From assembly GCA_029238785.1 (NCBI GenBank), contig JAQWFN010000003.1:1-64000 (forward strand): a stretch of 64,000 bases of DNA, given 5' to 3'. The translations under genes and the position numbers were made by a program. Shown piece by piece: positions 32,958-43,968 of this stretch (positions within the stretch are counted from its first letter, which is position 1; each line of letters starts with the position of its first letter). The notes beneath the pieces are model-generated. The model saw nothing but the letters and a program-made list of their open reading frames with translations, searched no databases and was not told the origin of the DNA. This DNA is from Flavobacteriales bacterium. GTDB lineage: Bacteria > Bacteroidota > Bacteroidia > Flavobacteriales_D > Sanyastnellaceae.

Positions 32958-33215
32958 TTACTTGTCGATAGAACCCACCACCCGTTTCATAAAGGCGTTC
33001 ATGGCCTCTTTTTTAGGTGTGCCATTAGCGATTTCTTTCTGTACTTCAAGTGCTCCATACATGTTGGAAAGCAACTCTCCGATGACATCAAGTTCTTCGT
33101 CTTTTAGCGACTCCAATTCAGTGAGGTGCTCGAGCACATCGATGGCTTCTACTAGGTAGTCCTCATCGGTTTTCTCAATGAATTCTTGCAGGTGTTTAAT
33201 TACTGGTAACCTCAT
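32958..33215 (-). CDS. Small helical protein of the thioredoxin block (DUF6952-like)
   Basis: An 85-residue acidic helical protein from the ATG at 33215 (MRLPVIKHLQEFIEK); the TTG further upstream is unlikely. It contains DEELDVIGELLSNMYGALEV and resembles what I recall as DUF6952, a Bacteroidota family found next to thioredoxin and peroxiredoxin; that name is from memory. It overlaps the thioredoxin gene by 20 bases. Probably in the same oxidative-stress transcript; role unknown. Confidence 0.75.
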   Translation of the reverse strand: MRLPVIKHLQEFIEKTDEDYLVEAIDVLEHLTELESLKDEELDVIGELLSNMYGALEVQKEIANGTPKKEAMNAFMKRVVGSIDK

Positions 33216-33510
33216 CAACAAATGATTTTAAGACTTCAGCCTTGTTGGTTTGAATTTGTTTCGCAAGCGCTCCGTTGCTGAATGCAGCGAAGGTTGGTAG
33301 GTTGTCAACGTTCGCTAACTGACGAGAGTTTGGAAATTTCTCTGCGTCAACAACAACGAAAACAACATCGCCGTGCTCACTGGCCATTTTCTTGAATTTC
33401 GGCTTCATAATTCTGCAGTTTCCACACCATCCGGCGCTGTACTGAACAATTACTTTTCCGTTTTCTTGAACCAACTGACTCAAATTGTCTTGATCTAGTT
33501 CTTGCAACAT
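33196..33510 (-). CDS. Thioredoxin-family protein with WCGNC site
   Basis: A 104-residue thioredoxin fold with the active site W28-C29-G30-N31-C32 and the cis-proline P72 (LPTF). The second position is Asn in place of the classical Pro, which tends to shift the redox potential and suggests a dedicated role. It lies 12 bases downstream of peroxiredoxin, so it is probably the reductant for that enzyme (inference). Cytoplasmic, as no signal peptide is present. Confidence 0.92.
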   Translation of the reverse strand: MLQELDQDNLSQLVQENGKVIVQYSAGWCGNCRIMKPKFKKMASEHGDVVFVVVDAEKFPNSRQLANVDNLPTFAAFSNGALAKQIQTNKAEVLKSFVDEVTSN

Positions 33511-33522
33511 AATTTCTGTTTT

Positions 33523-34158
33523 TTAGTGTGAAGCCAAGTAGCTCGCTACACCATCGCGGTTCGCAGACATAGCGTCTTTGCCTTCTTCCCAGTTTGCTGG
33601 ACAAACCTCACCGTGTGTTTGAACGTGAGTGTATGCATCAATCAAACGAAGAAATTCGTTTACGTTTCTTCCAAGAGGCATGTGGTTAATTCCTTCGTGG
33701 AATACGGTTCCTGTTTCATCAATCAAGTAAGTAGCACGATAAGTGACATAATCACCATGGATGATGTCTGCATTCAACTCCTCGTTGTACTCCACTGCGC
33801 TAACGTCAAGAATATTCAAAATCGACGCTAGGTTGCGGTTGCTATCTGCAATCAAGTTATAGGTAACACCTTCAATTCCACCGTTGTCTTTTGCCGTGTT
33901 CAACCAAGCGAAGTGTACTTCTGCTGTATCGCAAGATGCACCAATAACAATGGTGTTTCTTTTATCGAATTCACCCAAAGCTTCTTGGAATGCGTGAAGC
34001 TCAGTAGGACAAACAAAAGTGAAGTCTTTTGGGTACCAAAAAAGCAATACTTTCTTTTTGTTCTTTACTGCTTCTTCGAGAACGTTAATTTTAATGGTAT
34101 CTCCCATTTCATTCATGGCCGATACTTCCAAGTTAGGGAATTTCTTTCCTGTGAACAT
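33523..34158 (-). CDS. Typical 2-Cys peroxiredoxin (AhpC/Prx1 type)
   Basis: A 211-residue peroxidase that reduces hydrogen peroxide and organic hydroperoxides. The peroxidatic cysteine is C50 in DFTFVCPTE, and the resolving cysteine is C186 in GEVCPANW. R142 lies in the active-site region RATYLID. First gene of the peroxiredoxin-thioredoxin-helical protein unit, divergent from an OxyR-type regulator with about 110 bases between the two starts. Confidence 0.95.
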   Translation of the reverse strand: MFTGKKFPNLEVSAMNEMGDTIKINVLEEAVKNKKKVLLFWYPKDFTFVCPTELHAFQEALGEFDKRNTIVIGASCDTAEVHFAWLNTAKDNGGIEGVTYNLIADSNRNLASILNILDVSAVEYNEELNADIIHGDYVTYRATYLIDETGTVFHEGINHMPLGRNVNEFLRLIDAYTHVQTHGEVCPANWEEGKDAMSANRDGVASYLASH

Positions 34159-34198
34159 GTTCGTTGTTTTTTTGCGTGTTTAACTTACAATGATGACA

Positions 34199-34206
34199 CA
34201 AAATTA
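34199..34206 (-). promoter_or_regulatory. Candidate -7 element for the peroxiredoxin operon
   Basis: Reads TAATTTTG on the minus strand, an exact TAnnTTTG match, 40 bases upstream of the peroxiredoxin start. Confidence 0.4.
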
Positions 34207-34228
34207 CACGACTTGTTTCATAGAACCT

Positions 34229-34265
34229 AATTATACTATTTATACCTTTGTTAGATATTATCTAT
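34229..34265. promoter_or_regulatory. Candidate OxyR/LysR operator and -7 element
   Basis: Four half-sites at the OxyR spacing (ATAG-N7-CTAT-N7-ATAG-N7-CTAT): AATT at 34229, TTAT at 34240, TTAG at 34251 and CTAT at 34262, 11 of 16 bases matching. The right part contains the perfect palindrome AGATATTATCT (34253-34263). A TAnnTTTG element (TACCTTTG, 34243-34250) lies inside it, so binding would affect the regulator's own promoter. No footprint data; inferred from pattern. Confidence 0.4.
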
Positions 34266-34268
34266 GAG

Positions 34269-35207
34269 ATGAATCTAAACCAATTGAAATATGTTATGGC
34301 GGTGCATGAACACCGTCATTTTGGTAGGGCCGCTGAGCACTGTGATGTTACGCAGGCCACGCTTAGCGCAATGATCAAGAAGTTGGAAGAAGAGCTGGGG
34401 CTTGTTTTGTTTGACCGTGATAAGCAACCCACAGTAATTACAGAAGCTGGACTACAGGTGGTAAAAATTGCCAAAGACATGCTTGCCAAGCAACAAGAAC
34501 TGCTCGATTTGAGCAAAAACACGAGCACGAACTTAAAAGGAACATTCAAATTGGGCATTATTCCCACAGTGGCGAACGCTCTCCTTCCGCTGATTTTGCC
34601 TTCGCTGCTCGAACAGCACCCTGAACTTGAACTCACCATTGCGGAAATCACGACGGAAGAAATCATCCACCGACTAAAAGAAGACCGCATCGACCTTGGA
34701 ATATTGGCCACACCGCTTGAAGAAGAGGAATTGGAGGAAAACATTCTCTACTATGAAACCATGATGGTTTACGGAGTGAGTGATCCAAAGAAAAAATTCA
34801 TCGCCCCAAAAGATGTTCAGGATGAAAAAGTTTGGCTTTTAGAAGAAGGAAATTGTTTCAGAAACCAAAGCATGACCATTTGCGACATCCAAGAAAAGAG
34901 CAACTACCCCAACAAGCTTCACTTTGAAGGAAGCTCCTTTGATACCCTTCTCAATCTCAGTGATCATTTTGGGGGCATCACCCTGGTGCCCGAGCTCTAC
35001 TACAATTTAATGTCTGAAAGCAAGCAAGAGCGAACCCGAATGTTCAAAGCGCCCTATCCTGTTCGAGAGATTAGTGCAGTTTATTATCGGCCCTTTGCAA
35101 AAAAGAACAGCATTGACCTTTTGTCTGAACACATCAAAAAGCTCATTACGCCGCGATTAATAAGCACTACCCTACCTAAAAAGGACTTGTCTATCATTGG
35201 AATTTGA
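34269..35207 (+). CDS. oxyR: OxyR-type hydrogen peroxide sensor (LysR family)
   Basis: A 312-residue LysR regulator from the ATG at 34269 (MNLNQLKYVMAVHEHRHFG). N-terminal winged helix (about 1-60), then the effector domain. The diagnostic feature is the pair C196 and C205 in GNCFRNQSMTICD, matching the C-x8-C of E. coli OxyR C199 and C208, which form a disulfide on oxidation by peroxide. It is divergent from a peroxiredoxin/thioredoxin unit, the expected target. A candidate operator lies at 34229-34265. Confidence 0.93.
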   Translation: MNLNQLKYVMAVHEHRHFGRAAEHCDVTQATLSAMIKKLEEELGLVLFDRDKQPTVITEAGLQVVKIAKDMLAKQQELLDLSKNTSTNLKGTFKLGIIPTVANALLPLILPSLLEQHPELELTIAEITTEEIIHRLKEDRIDLGILATPLEEEELEENILYYETMMVYGVSDPKKKFIAPKDVQDEKVWLLEEGNCFRNQSMTICDIQEKSNYPNKLHFEGSSFDTLLNLSDHFGGITLVPELYYNLMSESKQERTRMFKAPYPVREISAVYYRPFAKKNSIDLLSEHIKKLITPRLISTTLPKKDLSIIGI

Positions 35208-35275: not shown

Positions 35276-35971
35276 ATGAAGACCAGCGAAACTGCCATAT
35301 TGTTTTTCAGCCGAAGCGTAGGCGCGGAAGCTAAAGCCAAGTTGTGGATTAAATCCAAGAAATCTGCGCTCATCAACCGCAGCATTTCTAGAACGCTCAT
35401 CAAGCACACCAAGTCTGTTCTTGACGGCAGCGGCTTGACGGTTTTTCATTTTGATGAGCACCAACAAATTGGTGATTCTTTTGGCGAACGCTTTGCCCAT
35501 GCCTTCCAAGCAATTTTTGACTTGGGTTACAGCAATGTAATCGCACTTGGTAACGACACGCCAAACTTGGAACACTTGTCTTGGAAAGCACTTCAAAACG
35601 AGCTCCAGAAAAACAAAACGATTCTTGGTCCGAACGAAAGAGGTGGCGCTTATCTCATTGGTCTAAACAAAGCCCTTTTCGATTTCAAAACCTTTTGTTC
35701 CTTGCCTTGGCAATGCGAACAGCTCTTTGAGACCCTTCAAGGCTATTTTGGAGCAGACATCCACGTGCTCAGCGAACAGATCGACCTCAACACCAAACAA
35801 GATTTATTGGCTGTACTCAGCCGTTTGAAGTCGGGTATTGGCTTGTTGCACACCTTGCGCTTGGCCCTAGGATTGGTGCTTCATCACGGTCAAAACACCC
35901 AAGACCTTTCGCTTTCATTGAGTCTTCCAAAAAGCGACCATCACCGTGGTCCGCCCATTGTTATTTGCTAA
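35276..35971 (+). CDS. DUF2064 glycosyltransferase-A-like protein
   Basis: A 231-residue protein of the DUF2064 family (GT-A fold; some homologues are annotated as arsenosugar glycosyltransferases). Recognisable: GDSFGERFAHAFQ, NVIALGNDTPNL and ILGPNERGGAYLIGL, and the PWQ near position 143. The C-terminal extension of about 45 residues (RLALGLVLHHGQNTQDLS...KSDHHRGPP) is His-rich and ends in Cys, and I do not know it from the family. It precedes the TonB/ABC/radical SAM operon by 80 bases and may belong to it. The reaction it catalyses here is unknown. Confidence 0.78.
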   Translation: MKTSETAILFFSRSVGAEAKAKLWIKSKKSALINRSISRTLIKHTKSVLDGSGLTVFHFDEHQQIGDSFGERFAHAFQAIFDLGYSNVIALGNDTPNLEHLSWKALQNELQKNKTILGPNERGGAYLIGLNKALFDFKTFCSLPWQCEQLFETLQGYFGADIHVLSEQIDLNTKQDLLAVLSRLKSGIGLLHTLRLALGLVLHHGQNTQDLSLSLSLPKSDHHRGPPIVIC

Positions 35972-36051
35972 GGCAAACCCTCGATTAATCCCAAATCAAC
36001 ATCAACTTACACTTCGGTCGGGCGCATGCTCTGGCCTTTAATTCATTTTAC

Positions 36052-39042
36052 ATGAAACGCATTCTTTTTGCATTTCTCGCGCTTATTGCTGCGAATTTTT
36101 TGAGCGCTCAGGCTTCTTTAGATATCGTCTTGCTCGACCAAAACAAAAAAGAAATTCCCTTCCAAGGAATTCAAGTGAGCAACACGGCCATTGGATACCA
36201 AAAGCAAGTTGCCACCAACGAAAACGGTAAAGTTCAGTTATACGGACTCTCCACTTCTGGTAAATACAGCATTGAAGTATTGGAGAGTGCATTTTATCAC
36301 CCCTTAACACAAGAGAACATTGTATTGATTTCTGGAAAAGCCACCTCTGTTACCCTCACTTTGACAGAAAAAACCCAGGCTTTGGATGTGGCCACTGTTT
36401 CGGGCGATAATTATGTGAGCATCAACGCTGTTAACGCTGAAGTTGCTTCGAGTTTAGACGCCAGAGAAATCAACACCCTTCCTGTTGAAGGGCGAGACAT
36501 CACCCGTGTTTTATACCGCTTGCCCAACATTACGCAAGCCACTGGTTTTTATCCTGAAGCCCCAAACATTGCCATCAACGGAGCAAATTCCTTGTATACC
36601 AATTATCAAATCGATGGTATGGACAACAACGAGAACTTTCTTGGTGGTCAGCGTTTTGCCATGCCCATTGGTTTCACCCAAAGCATCACAGCTTTAACCA
36701 ACAACTTCAGTGCAGAACACGGATTAAGCTCCAACGGCATCATCAACATCACCACAAAATCTGGAACCAACGAAACTGCGGGTGAAGTGTTTTACATGAC
36801 GCGCCCCGGTGCAGTTATTGATTCGCCCAGTGAATTTGCCTTGCGTGATTTGTCTGGAAACCAAGTGAAAGACGGTTTTCAGAGACACCAAGTTGGTTTT
36901 GGATTGGGAGGCGCAATCACCCAGAATAAAACATTTTACTACCTCAATGTAGAACACACCTTAGACATCAAAGACAACCTCCTGAACGTACCACAATTGG
37001 GCATTAACGAAACTGTTCAAGGGAGAAATACCTTCACATACTTGTCTGGAAAGCTCGATCACAACTGGGGAGAACGCTTTCAAACCTCATTGCGCGTGAA
37101 CACGGGTTTGAGCAATATTGAACGTCAAGGTGGTGGTTTAGAAGGTGGAGTGAACTTCCCTTCGGCGGGAAACACCCAAGCGCGAAATGCTATGAACATC
37201 GCCCTGAAAAATACGGTGCGAAGAACCAACTTCATTTACGAAGGAAATTTTCTTTACGGCCGCTTTCGCTGGAACTACGCCACGCCAGAAGATGAAGGGA
37301 GTCCGAACGTTACCGTACTCGACCCACAAGGCTTGACAATGGCGGTACTTGGTCATCCAGGCTATGTCTTTGACGTTACCGAAAACACCCAAGTGATTCA
37401 ACAAAAGCTCACTTTCTTGCGCGACAAGCACACCATTAAAGCTGGTGCACAATACAAGCGATCGAACTTTGCGCTATTTGGTGGAGGAAACCCCAACGGA
37501 AGTTATACCGTGCAATTGAATGAAGATCAACTTGCCGCTTTACAAACCAACAACCCGGGAATTGGCTTAGTGCCGCAAGATCTACCCGGAGACGTGAGCG
37601 TTTTGAATTATGGCGTAGAACTTCACCCAAACGCTTTTGAAGCCAATCAGAACATCTTCAGTATTTATATCGAAGACCAATGGGCCATTGCTCCGCGATT
37701 GAACGCGAATATTGGCTTGCGTTATGATTATGACGACTTGTCGAAGGGTGGAAACGACACCGGAGACCTCAACAACATTGCACCTCGTTTGAGCTTAAAT
37801 TATACCATCAACGAGCAAAGCAGTGTGCGCCTTGGCTATGGCATGTATTACGACAAAATCCTCTATGCTTTGTATAGCGATGCCTTGCAATTCAACTCCA
37901 ACAGCGAGGGCTACAAAGCGCAATTACAAGCTTTGATTGACCAAGGAGTTTTGCCTGAAGGAAGTAACATTGAGGCCCTCACCAACGAAGGAAACCTCAC
38001 GGCAAACGATCCAAATGCGGCCTACTTACAAGGTCCGCTTGCCGCCGATCTTCAAAATCAAAGAAATGAGGTGTTTCAAAACGAACTGCGCATCCTCAAC
38101 CCCAATGGTTATGACAACCCTTACAGCCATCAATTCATGGTGGGCTACCAGCGAAAAATAGATGAGGAATTATCCTTCTATGTTGATGTGATGCACAACC
38201 GTTCGTTCAACTTGTTCCGACTCCGCAACCTGAACGCACCTGCCGCTTATCAGATCGATCCAGACAATGTGGTGGTGCAATCTCAAGCAGATGCTGATGC
38301 GAGTAGACCCGTTCCCATCTTCACAGATGAGCAAGGAAACTATGCTTTGATCAATGGCGACACCTTGAGAAACGTTTCGAGAAATGTGGTGATGACCGAA
38401 AGCGAGGGGAGATCTAATTACTATGCTTTGAACTTCACCCTTCAGAAAGAGCGCGGCGACGATAACTATGCTTTCCGCTTTATGTACACCTTGTCTTACT
38501 TGGAAAACAACACCGAAGACATCAACTTCAGGGCCATGGACGGGAATGATTTCGAAGCAGAATGGGGTCCGTCTATTAACGACCGTACCCACCTCATCAA
38601 CAGCATCTTCACCTACTACCCAACGAAAAACTTAAGCCTTAATCTAAGCGCATTGTTGCAGAGCGGACAGCCCATCAACCGCATTCCTGATGCCGGCATT
38701 TACGGCACAACAGATTTGAACGGCGATGGTAGAGCTTTTGGTGATGCTTACGTTGGCAACAGCGACCGTTCTCCGGGTGAAGAGCGCAACAGCGATCGTT
38801 TACCTTGGTCGAACACCTTTGACTTGAGCATGTTCTACACCATTCCTTTCGGTGAGCAATCCAAAATGGAGATTGGTGCGTACGTATTCAACATCTTCAA
38901 TGCAGAGAACTTCAGTGGTTATTCGAACAACGCCACTCAGAGCAACCAAATTCAAGTTGGTCCAGCAAGCTCGGGTGTTTTTGTACAACGAAATGCAGCT
39001 CCTCCTCGTCAATTTCAATTCTCTGCCAGATTTTTGTTTTAA
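36052..39042 (+). CDS. TonB-dependent outer-membrane receptor
   Basis: A 996-residue receptor. Signal peptide (ends near residue 20, LSAQ), an N-terminal carboxypeptidase-like regulatory domain (about 21-110), a plug (about 120-270, with LPVEGRDITRVLYRLPN and IAINGANSLYTNYQIDGMDN) and a 22-strand-type barrel ending in the aromatic residues FSARFLF. It resembles Oar-like receptors rather than SusC. No SusD is nearby. Two bases separate it from the solute-binding lipoprotein gene, so it probably imports the substrate of that ABC transporter across the outer membrane. Confidence 0.9.
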   Translation: MKRILFAFLALIAANFLSAQASLDIVLLDQNKKEIPFQGIQVSNTAIGYQKQVATNENGKVQLYGLSTSGKYSIEVLESAFYHPLTQENIVLISGKATSVTLTLTEKTQALDVATVSGDNYVSINAVNAEVASSLDAREINTLPVEGRDITRVLYRLPNITQATGFYPEAPNIAINGANSLYTNYQIDGMDNNENFLGGQRFAMPIGFTQSITALTNNFSAEHGLSSNGIINITTKSGTNETAGEVFYMTRPGAVIDSPSEFALRDLSGNQVKDGFQRHQVGFGLGGAITQNKTFYYLNVEHTLDIKDNLLNVPQLGINETVQGRNTFTYLSGKLDHNWGERFQTSLRVNTGLSNIERQGGGLEGGVNFPSAGNTQARNAMNIALKNTVRRTNFIYEGNFLYGRFRWNYATPEDEGSPNVTVLDPQGLTMAVLGHPGYVFDVTENTQVIQQKLTFLRDKHTIKAGAQYKRSNFALFGGGNPNGSYTVQLNEDQLAALQTNNPGIGLVPQDLPGDVSVLNYGVELHPNAFEANQNIFSIYIEDQWAIAPRLNANIGLRYDYDDLSKGGNDTGDLNNIAPRLSLNYTINEQSSVRLGYGMYYDKILYALYSDALQFNSNSEGYKAQLQALIDQGVLPEGSNIEALTNEGNLTANDPNAAYLQGPLAADLQNQRNEVFQNELRILNPNGYDNPYSHQFMVGYQRKIDEELSFYVDVMHNRSFNLFRLRNLNAPAAYQIDPDNVVVQSQADADASRPVPIFTDEQGNYALINGDTLRNVSRNVVMTESEGRSNYYALNFTLQKERGDDNYAFRFMYTLSYLENNTEDINFRAMDGNDFEAEWGPSINDRTHLINSIFTYYPTKNLSLNLSALLQSGQPINRIPDAGIYGTTDLNGDGRAFGDAYVGNSDRSPGEERNSDRLPWSNTFDLSMFYTIPFGEQSKMEIGAYVFNIFNAENFSGYSNNATQSNQIQVGPASSGVFVQRNAAPPRQFQFSARFLF

Positions 39043-39044
39043 GC

Positions 39045-40259
39045 ATGAAAAAACTCCGCTATCTCATTTTACTTGTTCTTTTAAGCGCTTGCGGAACAAG
39101 TCCCGAAAGCGAACCTTCATCTGATGCTGCTTCCATGACTTGGGAAGAGCAGCTGGAGGCAGCGCGTGGCCAAGAAATCACCTTGATGATGTGGCCTGGT
39201 GATCCGCTCATCAACGCTTACATGAAAAGCTACGTGAAGCCAGAAGTGAAACAGCGTTTCGACATTGACTTGAACATTGTTCCAGGGCAAGGCAATCAAA
39301 TTGTGAGCAGCTTGATGACCGAGCTAGAAGCTGGAAAGGAAAGCAGTGAGGTGGACATGGTTTGGATCAATGGGGAAACCTTTTACCAGCTCCGCCAGAT
39401 CAAGGCTTTGCACGGTCCGTTTGCCAAATCGCTGCCCAACGCTGAATTTATCAATTGGGAGAGCGCATTTATCGGGACCGATTTTCAGCAGCCTGTCAAT
39501 GGTTTTGAGTGTCCGTGGGGCAACGTTCAAATGACCCTAATTTACGACAGCCTGAAGGTGAGCACTCCGCCCATGACTTTGGATGAACTTGGACTTTGGG
39601 TGAAGGCCAATCCGGGTAAATTCACCTTGGGGAACAACTTCACCGGTATGACCCTTTTGAAGGCATGGTTGATTGATTTTGCTGGAGGAGGAAAGTCATT
39701 AAACGGAGATTTTGACGAAGCCAAATACCTCGAAGCCAGCACAAAGCTCTGGGAGTTCATCAATACCCATAAGGCCTATTTTTGGAATGAAGGGAAAAGT
39801 TTTCCAAAAGACTTGGCCGAGCAGCACCGCTTGTTTGCCAATGGAGAATTGGCCTTCACCATGAGCAATAACGACAGTGAGGTGGACAACAAGATTGCTC
39901 AAGGACTTTTCCCAGAGAGCGCTCGTGCCTATGTTCCCGATTACGGCAGCATTCAAAACTCGCACTACATGGGCATTACATCGCTCAGTGAAAACAAGAA
40001 GGCTGTTGAGGTGGTGATCAACTTTCTGATTTCACCGGAAGCGCAATTGAAAAAAATGGACCCTCGGGTTTGGGGAGACGGAACAGTTCTGGATGTGAAC
40101 AAACTCAGCGTGGAATGGCAGCAAAAGTTTCAAAATGTTCCCGGGCGAGTGCATGCTCCTGAGCGTTCAGAAATAGCAGCAAAAGCGCTGATGGAACCGG
40201 CCCCAGAATACATGATGCGTTTGTTTGAAGACTTCAGATTAAAGGTAATTGAAGGGTGA
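39045..40259 (+). CDS. YnjB-like solute-binding lipoprotein of an ABC importer
   Basis: A 404-residue lipoprotein with lipobox LLSAC (Cys16). The mature part has the features of COG4134/YnjB: EITLMMWPGDPLINAYM, DLNIVPGQGNQIVSSL, VDMVWINGETFYQLR, FTMSNNDSEVDNK and ISPEAQLKKMDP. YnjB belongs to the solute-binding fold that also includes thiamine- and iron-binding proteins; its ligand is unproven. The TGA overlaps the GTG start of the first permease by four bases. Confidence 0.88.
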   Translation: MKKLRYLILLVLLSACGTSPESEPSSDAASMTWEEQLEAARGQEITLMMWPGDPLINAYMKSYVKPEVKQRFDIDLNIVPGQGNQIVSSLMTELEAGKESSEVDMVWINGETFYQLRQIKALHGPFAKSLPNAEFINWESAFIGTDFQQPVNGFECPWGNVQMTLIYDSLKVSTPPMTLDELGLWVKANPGKFTLGNNFTGMTLLKAWLIDFAGGGKSLNGDFDEAKYLEASTKLWEFINTHKAYFWNEGKSFPKDLAEQHRLFANGELAFTMSNNDSEVDNKIAQGLFPESARAYVPDYGSIQNSHYMGITSLSENKKAVEVVINFLISPEAQLKKMDPRVWGDGTVLDVNKLSVEWQQKFQNVPGRVHAPERSEIAAKALMEPAPEYMMRLFEDFRLKVIEG

Positions 40260-41104
40260 TTCTTGGGCGAAAAAATATCGTTCTCACCGCATTTGTGCTC
40301 ATTTGTTTGCTCCCTTTGCTCATGGGCTTTGTCTATTCTTTGGGCTACAGCTTAGGAGTTTTTGGATTGATGAATGAGGGCTTTACACTCGACCATTGGC
40401 TGCGTTTGTTTGCGTCAAAAGATGCCTGGAGCAGCTTGATTTACACCTTCCTGCTCACCCTGGTTTCAATCACACTCGTGATTGTTTTCGCGGGGCTGCT
40501 TTCTCGCGCATTTGTGTCAAAGCCTGAGCGCTCTTTCACCCAAAAACTACTTTTACTACCGCTGCTTTTTGCACCTGTTGCCGCTGGTTTTGCGTGGTAC
40601 TACGTGCTTAGTCCCGCCGGAATCTTAAGCCGCATCAGTCATGCTTTAGGCCTCACAGAAGACATCACCTCCTTCCCCAGGATGGTGAATGACGACTGGA
40701 GCATCGGTATTTTGCTTGTTCATGTCTTTTTGGTCTTGCCCATTTTTACATTTCTGTTCACCGCTCAGGCCAAAAGCATGAACTTGTTGGAGATGAACAA
40801 GCTCGCTACAAGTTTAGGAAGCTCGCGCCTTCAGTGTTTCACTAAGCTTTGGTTGCCCGCTTTGGTGAAGCGCTTTAAATTGCTCATTGTGCTCTACGCC
40901 GTGTTCTTTATGGGGACGTATGAAGTGCCTTTGATTTTAGGACAGAGTTCGCCCCGTGTTTTGACCGTTTTTATTAGTGAAAAGCTCACCATGTTTAGCT
41001 TAGACGACATTCCTTTGGGTCATTGCATGGCGGTTTTTTACAGTGCCTGCATCTTTATTGTGCTCAGCTTTTTCCTTTATCGCCAAAAAAGCACCGCCTC
41101 ATGA
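40256..41104 (+). CDS. ABC importer permease (YnjC N-terminal half-like)
   Basis: A 282-residue inner-membrane permease with six predicted helices, starting at a GTG that overlaps the end of the lipoprotein gene. The cytoplasmic EAA-type loop is near MNLLEMNKLATSLGSSRLQC. In E. coli, YnjC is a single protein of about 500 residues containing two permease halves; here the first half is encoded by its own gene. Overlaps the second permease by four bases (ATGA). Confidence 0.88.
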   Translation: MILGRKNIVLTAFVLICLLPLLMGFVYSLGYSLGVFGLMNEGFTLDHWLRLFASKDAWSSLIYTFLLTLVSITLVIVFAGLLSRAFVSKPERSFTQKLLLLPLLFAPVAAGFAWYYVLSPAGILSRISHALGLTEDITSFPRMVNDDWSIGILLVHVFLVLPIFTFLFTAQAKSMNLLEMNKLATSLGSSRLQCFTKLWLPALVKRFKLLIVLYAVFFMGTYEVPLILGQSSPRVLTVFISEKLTMFSLDDIPLGHCMAVFYSACIFIVLSFFLYRQKSTAS

Positions 41105-41925
41105 TGAAACTAGGAAAAAGTACCCTCGCGCTCTTTGTGCTTTTGCCGCTCCTCTGCGTTATTTATCTCAGTGTGGTGAGCGCATGGACCTACCCGCTTT
41201 TGTTCGATGCTGAATTCAGCTTAAAGCATTACCTCGTGCTCTTTTCTGGTGAAAGTGAACTCGCTTGGAGCTTTGTTCAAAGTGTTCTCCTCAGCCTCGT
41301 GATGGCCACTTTAGGACTCCTATTCGGCTTTTTCGTTGCAAAAGAAATTGCCTTTTCAAAGTACGGATCTCGTCTTTTAAAACTGGCCTTTTACCCTTAT
41401 ATGATTGCACCCGTAGTTTTGGGTTCGATGCTGCAGTTTTATTTTGTTCGTTGGGGTTTGAGCGCCTCTTTTTTCGGGGTGATGCTGGCTCAGTCTTTAT
41501 TCATTCTGCCCTATGCCGTGCTGATCATGAGTAGTTTTTGGTCGGAAAACATCTTACAGCTTTTCAAACTTGGACAGAGTCTTGGTGGCGATGCTAAAAC
41601 CGTCAAGCGCACCTTGCTCTACCCTTTAGCCAAACCATGGATGCTCCTCACCTTTGCACAGTGCTTTTTGATCTCGTGGTTTGAATATGGTATAACTCAA
41701 GTGCTCGGCATTGGAAAAGTCAAAACCCTCAGCGTAATCAGCATGCAGTTCTTAAAAGAGGCCAATCCGCACCCCGCAGCAGTGGCCGCTGTGCTCATGA
41801 TTGTGCCCGTACTGCTTACTTTCATTATTTTGTACCGCTGGCAAAACAAAGCACAAGGAAATTGGTCGGCCATCGCCCCCATCAACAATAGTTTAAGCCA
41901 TCACCCTAAAAAAGTAGGCGCATGA
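41101..41925 (+). CDS. ABC importer permease (YnjC C-terminal half-like)
   Basis: A 274-residue permease with six predicted helices; the ATG at 41101 is in the overlap with the previous gene, and the frame upstream of it is only a shadow of that gene. EAA-type loop: ILQLFKLGQSLGGDAKTVKR. It would pair with the permease encoded upstream as a heterodimer. Overlaps the ATPase gene by four bases. Confidence 0.88.
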   Translation: MMKLGKSTLALFVLLPLLCVIYLSVVSAWTYPLLFDAEFSLKHYLVLFSGESELAWSFVQSVLLSLVMATLGLLFGFFVAKEIAFSKYGSRLLKLAFYPYMIAPVVLGSMLQFYFVRWGLSASFFGVMLAQSLFILPYAVLIMSSFWSENILQLFKLGQSLGGDAKTVKRTLLYPLAKPWMLLTFAQCFLISWFEYGITQVLGIGKVKTLSVISMQFLKEANPHPAAVAAVLMIVPVLLTFIILYRWQNKAQGNWSAIAPINNSLSHHPKKVGA

Positions 41926-42665
41926 TAGAGGTTCGTCAATGGCAAAAAAAATATGCTGAGCTTGAAGTGTTGAAATCGCTCAACTTCCAAATGGAGGAAG
42001 GCAAAACCCTGGCGGTTTTGGGTGAAAGCGGTTGCGGGAAAAGTACCCTGCTAAAAACCTTGGCCGGCTTTGACGTACCAGACGGTGGAAGTTTTTTATT
42101 CAATGGGCAAAATATCAATGCACTGCCCGTTCATCAGCGAGGCATCGTTTACATGAGCCAAGAAGCCCTTTTGTTTCCCCACCTCAATGTGTTTGATAAC
42201 TTGGCTTACGGACTAAATATCCGCAAGGTATCGAAAGCAACACAGCGAGAAAAAGTAATGGTGCTAGCTCAAGAGTTGGGCATTGAAGACCAGCTTGAAA
42301 AAATGCCTTCGGAATTGTCTGGCGGACAAAAACAGCGGGTAAATTTTGGAAGGGCTTTGATTACTCAACCCAGAATGTTGCTTTTAGACGAACCCTTTGC
42401 CAGTTTAGACAGCGGCACCCGAATGAAAATGCAAAAGCTCTTCATTGAAAGCGCCGAAAAATGGAAACTGAGCACAATTTTCGTCACCCACGACATCAAA
42501 GAAGCCTTGATTATGGGCTCGCTTTGGGGAACGATGAGCAATGGAAGCCTGGAGCTCTTTGAAAGTAAGCAGGCATTTATCGCAGCAGAACAATCTGGCG
42601 CAAAAGAAGAAATGGCCTTTTGGCAAACTATTCAAAGTGAAAATGGAAGAAAAGATGATGAATAA
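41922..42665 (+). CDS. ABC importer ATPase (YnjD-like)
   Basis: A 247-residue ATP-binding protein. Walker A GESGCGKST (near residue 34), Q-loop MSQEALLF, signature LSGGQKQR, Walker B LLLDEPFAS and the switch histidine THDIKEA. It resembles YnjD and energises the two preceding permeases. It overlaps the radical SAM gene by about 11 bases, so expression of the transporter and the enzyme is coupled. Confidence 0.93.
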   Translation: MIEVRQWQKKYAELEVLKSLNFQMEEGKTLAVLGESGCGKSTLLKTLAGFDVPDGGSFLFNGQNINALPVHQRGIVYMSQEALLFPHLNVFDNLAYGLNIRKVSKATQREKVMVLAQELGIEDQLEKMPSELSGGQKQRVNFGRALITQPRMLLLDEPFASLDSGTRMKMQKLFIESAEKWKLSTIFVTHDIKEALIMGSLWGTMSNGSLELFESKQAFIAAEQSGAKEEMAFWQTIQSENGRKDDE

Positions 42666-43584
42666 GTTTGATCATATCGAATCGGTGTATTGGGTGTTTA
42701 CCCAATTGTGTAACGATAAGTGCGACCACTGCTACAACCTCAGTGGTCCGCAAGGAAGCAGAATGAGCGAAGAGGAATGTTTGGCCATCATCGAAAACCT
42801 TCCCCGCAAAGTCGACCGCATTATTTTGAGTGGTGGTGAACCCATCGCTGAGAAGAAAAAACTCTATTTGATTTTAGACCATTTAAAAGAAAAATACGGC
42901 AGCGAAACACAAATCATGCTGCAAACCAACGGCGATTTGCTCACCGAAGAAATACTCGACATCCTCATTGAGAAAGGGGTTACTCGTTTTGACATTGCCA
43001 GTATTGATCGCTACCACAAAAAGGCCGGTGGCCGACTCATGGAATTGGCTGATTTGTTTGATTCGCGCGGTGTGAATGGTGATGAAAAAGACCCTTTGGT
43101 GAAGAAAGACAACTACCTTCATGCTTATCCTTTGAGTTGGGGATATTGGGGGGCGAGTGAAGAGATATGGCTCGGTGGAAACTGGCCTAGAGGAAGGGCT
43201 TTTCAGAAGAACATCTGGCTCAAAAACCCCGATCATAATTTTTGCTCCATCCTCTCGGGTGGGATTGGTTTTTTGAGTGGTGGCGACGAAATTCCACAAG
43301 AGATCTCCATTCAGCTTTGGAAAATCAACCCTTGTTGCCCGGGCACCAAAGAAGCCCTTGGCGATGCGCGTAGCGAAAAGGTAGCCGAGGTGCTCGCGCG
43401 CTTGGCCGGCAATCCCGTTTTCGAAAAAATCAACTTGGGCGATCCCATCAGCATGGGGGAAAGCATTGGGGTGAGCACAGAACACGCCAAAAAACGCTGT
43501 GGTGAATTGAAAAGCGTGTGCCTCTGGTGCGATGAATTTTTCGACAAGCATTTCGACATCAAAACACTTGCTGCCAAACAATAA
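42655..43584 (+). CDS. Radical SAM protein with extra cysteine motifs
   Basis: About 309 residues from the ATG at 42655 (an ATG at 42643 is also possible). The iron-sulfur motif C19-x3-C23-x2-C26 (CNDKCDHCYN) and the SAM-binding GGEP (60-63) are standard. Six further cysteines in the C-terminal half (FCSILS, NPCCPG, KRCGELKSVCLWCDEFF) could hold an auxiliary iron-sulfur cluster, as in SPASM/twitch proteins. The conserved-looking SIDRYHKKAGG and GGNWPRGRA segments are unusual. Substrate unknown; the gene overlaps the ABC ATPase gene. Confidence 0.85.
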   Translation: MMNKFDHIESVYWVFTQLCNDKCDHCYNLSGPQGSRMSEEECLAIIENLPRKVDRIILSGGEPIAEKKKLYLILDHLKEKYGSETQIMLQTNGDLLTEEILDILIEKGVTRFDIASIDRYHKKAGGRLMELADLFDSRGVNGDEKDPLVKKDNYLHAYPLSWGYWGASEEIWLGGNWPRGRAFQKNIWLKNPDHNFCSILSGGIGFLSGGDEIPQEISIQLWKINPCCPGTKEALGDARSEKVAEVLARLAGNPVFEKINLGDPISMGESIGVSTEHAKKRCGELKSVCLWCDEFFDKHFDIKTLAAKQ

Positions 43585-43608
43585 GCCATCACCCCATCAC
43601 CCAAAAAA

Positions 43609-43968
43609 ATGCTTTACTTCATCTACAACGCAGACGCCGGCAAATGGAACGGATACATGGACATGCTCCACAAAATCGTTTCGCCCAAAACCTATCCTTG
43701 TCACTTGTGCGACATCACCTACGGCGTGTTTAAAATTCGACCAGAGTGGGACGCCTTCTTAAAGTCACAAAGCGATGAGCTCGTTTTCCTGCACCGCGAT
43801 GAATGGCAAAAAGATGCCGCATTTGTGGAAGAACAACTGCCTGCAATTTTCGAGGTGAGGGAAGGAAAAAGCAGCGTGGCCTTGTCTGCTCAAGACATGA
43901 GCGAGATGGATTTGGCTGAGCTCATGGCTTGGGTTGAAGGTAGGCGAAAAAGCAATGAAGCGCGCTGA
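43609..43968 (+). CDS. Small CxxC protein of the transport operon
   Basis: A 119-residue soluble protein with FIYNADAGKWNGYMDMLHKIV near the N-terminus and a YPCHLCDITYG site (cysteines at about 28 and 31). Homologues are, as far as I recall, sometimes annotated as GTPase, but no nucleotide-binding motif is present and I do not use that name. The CxxC suggests a redox or metal site. It follows the radical SAM gene by 24 bases and closes the TonB/ABC operon. Function unknown. Confidence 0.72.
   Translation: MLYFIYNADAGKWNGYMDMLHKIVSPKTYPCHLCDITYGVFKIRPEWDAFLKSQSDELVFLHRDEWQKDAAFVEEQLPAIFEVREGKSSVALSAQDMSEMDLAELMAWVEGRRKSNEAR

Follow-up and report, generated by a model that had tools for sequence, protein, structure and literature searches.

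We describe an eight-gene array at positions 35276-43968 of a 64,000-nucleotide stretch of a Flavobacteriales genome (assembly GCA_029238785.1, contig JAQWFN010000003.1, positions 1 to 64,000), which we call the window. The array encodes a TonB-dependent receptor (TBDR), a YnjB-type ATP-binding cassette (ABC) importer, and a radical S-adenosylmethionine (radical SAM) enzyme. We propose that the array is devoted to importing and processing a single small molecule, most likely a nucleoside-like riboside, and that the radical SAM enzyme in it replaces a phosphorylase and a kinase; we give this reading a probability of about 0.5. The strongest new fact is that the processing module behind this one transporter is exclusive and interchangeable.

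Of 393 sampled genomes of the phylum, 21 carry YnjB (model NF008633) and 9 carry the radical SAM family. The two co-occur in 7 of the 9 radical SAM genomes (hypergeometric 1.4e-8, relatedness not corrected). For the YnjB genomes without the radical SAM enzyme we fetched the neighborhoods, and we observe that all 21 YnjB genomes contain one, and only one, of three modules. Module A is the radical SAM enzyme (7/21), module B is an MTAP-like phosphorylase, usually together with an MTR-kinase-like kinase (10/21), and module C is a nucleoside hydrolase plus an MTR-kinase-like kinase (4/21). As examples of module B, loci L119, L120, L123, and L129 have the full array of DUF2064, TBDR, YnjB, two permeases, and ATPase, followed by the phosphorylase and the kinase; L118, L124, L130, and L131 have YnjB, permease(s), and ATPase with the MTAP-like gene, the kinase being nearby or not; and in genomes G147 and G422 YnjB and the MTAP-like gene are not neighbors. 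At the module C loci (L125-L128), SusC/SusD sometimes replaces the receptor, and the L125 kinase is located elsewhere. In genome-wide searches, the MTAP-like protein is present in all 10 type B genomes (G422 was checked for this protein alone) and the hydrolase is restricted to the 4 type C genomes. The same searches in 14 radical SAM genomes found no MTR-kinase-like protein, no PF01156 nucleoside hydrolase, and no MTAP-like protein, with weak partial matches to the latter in two. Outside the 393-genome sample, one operon (L081) holds nucleoside hydrolase, kinase, and radical SAM enzyme together.

In the window, all eight open reading frames are on the + strand. The array starts with a DUF2064 protein (35276..35971; PF09837 2.5e-15, above cut-off), followed after an 80-nt gap by the TBDR (36052..39042), which has an Oar-like barrel (PF25183 3.3e-55) and both PF00593 barrel and Plug domains above cut-off. 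Two nucleotides further comes the YnjB-type solute-binding lipoprotein (39045..40259), which matches NF008633 (PRK11622) at 8.3e-110, with 367 bits vs. a cut-off of 203, and also PF13416. Its lipobox cysteine C16 is conserved in our alignments, and its AlphaFold2 model (pLDDT 92) has the fold of a solute-binding protein (SBP). The rest of the importer lies in the same operon: permease A (40256..41104, GTG start, similar to the N-half of YnjC, weak ModB/CysT-type matches), permease B (41101..41925, similar to the C-half of YnjC, weak PhnU/PhnV/PotC-type matches), and a YnjD-like ABC ATPase (41922..42665; PF00005 7e-35), each overlapping the preceding gene by 4 nt. The twitch-like radical SAM gene (42658..43584; PF04055 1e-16) overlaps the ATPase gene by 8 nt, or by 11 nt with an alternative ATG at 42655, and 24 nt after its stop starts a small CxxC protein (43609..43968). 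Neither the two permeases nor the CxxC protein matched a Pfam family. A previous interpretation of the window made without database searches (the sequence-only reading) had described these same-direction genes, tight from the receptor to the radical SAM enzyme, and had named the DUF2064, TBDR, YnjB, ATPase, and radical SAM proteins; the open reading frame check and the family searches bear out both the layout and the names.

With the radical SAM protein as query, we gathered 79 loci from public genomes and analyzed 77. The ABC ATPase gene is directly upstream of the radical SAM gene in 58 of the 77, which agrees with the suggestion of the sequence-only reading that a dedicated outer-to-inner-membrane import is tied to this enzyme. 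YnjB, permease, and ATPase are all present in 49 of the 59 loci that have at least 8 kb upstream of the radical SAM gene. TBDR orthologues are found in 52 loci, permeases A and B are kept in 63 and 62, and the DUF2064 protein keeps its position in about 45 related loci. In a gene-order comparison, the order from DUF2064 to the radical SAM enzyme recurs in Flavobacteriales, Saprospiraceae, Cytophagales (Hymenobacter, Pontibacter, Fulvivirga, Fibrisoma), Pedobacter, and others, and also in single metagenome-assembled genomes labelled Gammaproteobacteria, Armatimonadetes, Chthoniobacterales, and Chlorobiota. Because this order is retained down to ~55% radical SAM identity across many families, it is beyond chance, and the core of the eight-gene array is a real, widely conserved import operon. 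In the literature searched we found no described operon of this make-up, as the sequence-only reading had supposed, and no functional account of YnjBCD or DUF2064.

That reading had also placed the CxxC gene with the radical SAM gene beside the transporter. The radical SAM gene is indeed usually there. The CxxC gene is found at 8 loci only, all of close relatives (C31-x2-C34 and FLH.DEW conserved), usually right after the radical SAM gene, and near a homologue on a Thiodictyon plasmid there is no radical SAM enzyme or transporter; it is therefore an accessory, a local add-on outside the core. We found no plasmid-borne relatives of the radical SAM enzyme.

Do operons with different modules import the same compound? 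In a YnjB tree, the Bacteroidota-type operons form a single clade (100% SH-aLRT) in which modules A and B are interleaved, several of the inner branches being weak. The tree has 8 label changes overall; shuffles give 21.4, and the fewest possible is 3. YnjB proteins of A and B are on average 54% identical, against 55% within A, and at the 126 columns conserved in module A, module B deviates at only one (T200). Module C deviates at 24 of the 126, clustered at ~53, 153-161, 274-282, 307, and 342-345. Given the interleaving, the like identity, and the near-identical conserved columns, we infer that module A and B operons probably carry the same ligand, and module C operons a related one.

Like the YnjBCD of E. 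coli (NF008633/PRK11622), these importers combine an SBP that exceeds the curated cut-off with a single ATPase and with permeases that are either separate or fused. Unlike other YnjBCD systems, the Bacteroidota operons also have a TBDR, a DUF2064 protein, and a processing module, and their YnjB clade is separate from the other YnjB proteins compared (~32% identity, 100% branch). The YnjB neighbors in other phyla are CDP-alcohol phosphatidyltransferase, FAD oxidoreductase, and rhodanese genes, and the Bacteroidota clade may differ in ligand from the YnjB of those phyla. On a Pseudoalteromonas plasmid (L137:629-10918), one array holds TBDR, TVP38/FAD oxidoreductase, DUF547, YnjB, permease, ATPase, and CDP-alcohol phosphatidyltransferase. 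On a Peptoclostridium acidaminophilum plasmid (L136:4936-7122), a nucleoside hydrolase gene is directly upstream of YnjB, an adjacency that hints independently at nucleosides.

The enzymes of the sister modules give the substrate class its shape. The module B phosphorylases belong to PF01048 and are closest to MTAP (85-107 bits vs. a cut-off of 275), but the adenine-binding TDYD of MTAP, with its Asp pair, has become GHKY in all members compared. The module B and C kinases score 48-114 bits against MTRK (cut-off 275), and the module C hydrolase (PF01156) is by sequence closest to RihA/RihC-type enzymes. These family matches combined suggest a nucleoside-like riboside with a base other than adenine. 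Could modules B and C simply be an ordinary MTA phosphorylase and MTR kinase, the system serving the salvage of methylthioadenosine (MTA) or 5'-deoxyadenosine? The sister modules, with their MTAP-like and MTR-kinase-like proteins and nucleoside hydrolases, do resemble known MTA salvage (MTAP, MTAN+MtnK), and the module enzymes are closest to MTAP and MTRK. On the other hand, scores lie well below half of the curated cut-offs, no MtnA-type genes were recognized nearby, and the window itself has none of these enzymes. As the adenine pocket is lost in the MTAP-like proteins, we reject MTA salvage as the function, and consider it very improbable.

For a riboside with a different base, the mechanism could run as follows. 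The TonB receptor would carry the compound over the outer membrane, and the YnjB lipoprotein would pass it to the importer of two permeases and one ATPase. The cytoplasmic radical SAM enzyme would then convert it into something usable or harmless, filling the role that, in sister operons with the same transporter, would fall to the MTAP-like phosphorylase and the APH/MTR-kinase-like kinase. The DUF2064 and CxxC proteins may participate as well.

The radical SAM protein belongs to its superfamily by the SAM-cluster motif C18-x3-C22-x2-C25, each cysteine at least 90% conserved in an alignment of 51 sequences (A1), and by 62 bits to PF04055 vs. a cut-off of 29.5. Five more cysteines are invariant in the same alignment (C196, C226, C227, C288, C291). 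None of the curated NCBIfam radical SAM equivalogs (NirJ, W_rSAM, viperin, MoaA, and others) is above cut-off, the best reaching 42 bits vs. 500. The folds nearest to its AlphaFold2 model (pLDDT 89.8) are EpeE/YydG, the nearest solved one (TM 0.58), BtrN, and SpeY. All three are two-cluster twitch-type enzymes. With all of them the protein shares its closest fold and profile matches and auxiliary-cluster-type cysteines, including PCC and CxxC, the PCC region aligning weakly with YydG in profile comparison; but identity is ~20%, TM is at most 0.6, peptide or aminocyclitol genes are lacking, and the partner in the operon is an importer. A second [4Fe-4S] cluster and a catalytic Cys as in EpeE-type twitch enzymes could be present: the cysteines are invariant and the fold is related. 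The twitch-type fold, the paired invariant cysteines (PCC, CxxC), and the likeness to EpeE/YydG lead us to expect that the enzyme may act by hydrogen abstraction, either at the ribose or at the aglycone, resulting in dehydrogenation, epimerization, or bond cleavage. That the family is a new nucleoside/riboside-processing class, using radical chemistry in nutrient or toxin salvage to replace a glycosidic-bond phosphorylase and kinase for the same ligand imported by a TonB/ABC system, we put forward only tentatively.

The likeness in fold to the epipeptide epimerase EpeE/YydG, with PCC cysteines and the catalytic Cys223 proposed in EpeE as hydrogen donor (PMC8326336), could also mean that the enzyme is a peptide-modifying epimerase and that the transporter takes in a peptide or a ligand resembling a siderophore. 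We find this very unlikely: there is no conserved precursor-peptide gene, the same transporter bears phosphorylase/kinase modules instead, and the aminocyclitol-acting BtrN and SpeY are also near in fold. The cargo favored by the sequence-only reading, a metal chelate, a thiamine-like molecule, or another cofactor that the radical SAM enzyme converts, is in keeping with the usual service of TonB receptors to scarce cofactors and with the resemblance of the YnjB fold to general SBPs, among them those for polyamines and iron. However, an Rfam search of the window found no riboswitch, and no cofactor-pathway gene was recognized in the inspected loci. Since there is no riboswitch and the sister modules point to a nucleoside or riboside, that cargo is not supported, and it seems quite improbable.

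The DUF2064 protein raises the question of arsenic. It is a divergent relative of TIGR04282 (arsenosugar transferase), with 63 bits vs. a cut-off of 134, and in alignment A3 it lacks the GKxKTRL motif that true TIGR04282 proteins have near the N-terminus; a solved homologue is 3cgx. The system could then take up arsenosugars or other organoarsenicals, that is, import 5-substituted ribosides whose arsenical ribose would be processed by the radical SAM or kinase/phosphorylase modules; MTR-kinase-like enzymes do suit a 5-substituted ribose. In Aquimarina aggregata (L054:375-19959), the entire operon is embedded in an arsenosugar biosynthesis cluster by curated models (TIGR04169, ArsS, rhodanese NF045521, TIGR04282, PNP, AsSugarArsM, TIGR04283, DUF547). 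At L059 the radical SAM gene is followed by genes for a rhodanese, a DUF2064/TIGR04282-like protein, and PNP, L098 has TIGR04283 and DUF547, L013 and L050 have ArsM-like genes, and ars-type genes recur (L013, L015, L017, L050, L059, L098). Against this, arsenic genes are lacking around most operons, the window's own genome lacks ArsS, its radical SAM enzyme is not ArsS (TIGR04167, 23 bits vs. a cut-off of 300), and ArsS, present in 151 of the 393 genomes, is in 0 of the 21 YnjB genomes (2.7e-5, phylogeny not corrected). Makers versus users is one possible reading of this non-overlap, phylogeny another. Arsenosugar synthesis as the general function is rejected, strong as it is at L054, because ArsS and YnjB genomes never overlap, and we regard organoarsenical uptake as unlikely. 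Separately, at L098:2128-3687 a second radical SAM gene (weakly TrsS-like) lies by TIGR04283 and DUF547, adjoining the radical SAM-DUF2064 pair.

Known queuosine salvage uses a nucleoside hydrolase or a radical SAM lyase (PMC11130926), the same logic as in our modules; here an importer of queuosine or queuine could be paired with either a QueK-like nucleoside hydrolase and kinase or a QueL-like radical SAM lyase. Of 27 operon genomes, 19 lack QueC, among them those of the window's family. But QueC is present in the other 8, and its absence tracks phylogeny at class level (of 198 phylum genomes, 103 exceed the cut-off, with hardly any in the window's class), so we reject this clue as largely a class trait; phylogeny apart, QueC status is not linked to the operon. 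Moreover, QueL is not named among the profile or fold matches of the radical SAM enzyme, the MTAP-like proteins have no visible 6-oxopurine carboxylate, and no TGT/QueA gene was seen by eye near the inspected loci. Like the arsenosugar reading, queuosine salvage is weak, and we think it distinctly unlikely.

Several observations weigh against the riboside system that we prefer. The analysis points to no particular ligand molecule. The module enzymes are far below the curated MTAP and MTRK cut-offs, so that "nucleoside" rests on superfamily membership, and a phosphorylase together with an MTR-type kinase would be redundant for a plain nucleoside. On annotated plasmids outside Bacteroidota, YnjB lies beside CDP-alcohol phosphatidyltransferase and TVP38/FAD oxidoreductase genes, which are not nucleoside-suggestive; rhodanese genes are also near. 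The radical SAM gene occurs with DUF2064 and TBDR alone at L012, L016, L056, L096, and L097, and is solitary at L020 and in a Saprospiraceae clade (L063, L065, L083). Finally, five MTAP-like genomes of one genus have no YnjB.

Around the array, a terminator-like hairpin lies between DUF2064 and TBDR (36016..36036, + strand, consensus match only). Four such hairpins were found in the region vs. 1.3 expected, and this one could possibly act in attenuation. Just upstream of DUF2064 (33196-35207) we see by eye genes for a peroxiredoxin, a thioredoxin, and an OxyR-like regulator; a regulator gene of equal length precedes DUF2064 solely in the nearest relative (L008). Elsewhere, two conserved families of ~215 aa (L044:8533-9186, L047:10993-11640) lie beside the radical SAM or ATPase gene at 27 and 25 loci, mostly in Hymenobacter; a by-eye guess of amidotransferase/ThuA-like proteins ("GAT6/GAT7") was dropped, with no Pfam, NCBIfam, or PDB support. 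At L099:9085-13868 and L100, a distant radical SAM gene (~30%) is beside YnjB, a fused permease, and an ATPase, with neither a TBDR nor a DUF2064 gene.

YnjBCD is an orphan transporter in E. coli and many other bacteria, and the module swap narrows its Bacteroidota branch to a few testable ligands. The module comparison also exposes an uncharacterized radical SAM family. If the swap is functional, it would be a rare case of radical chemistry replacing ordinary nucleoside cleavage, and the question of the ligand would be directly testable with one binding protein.

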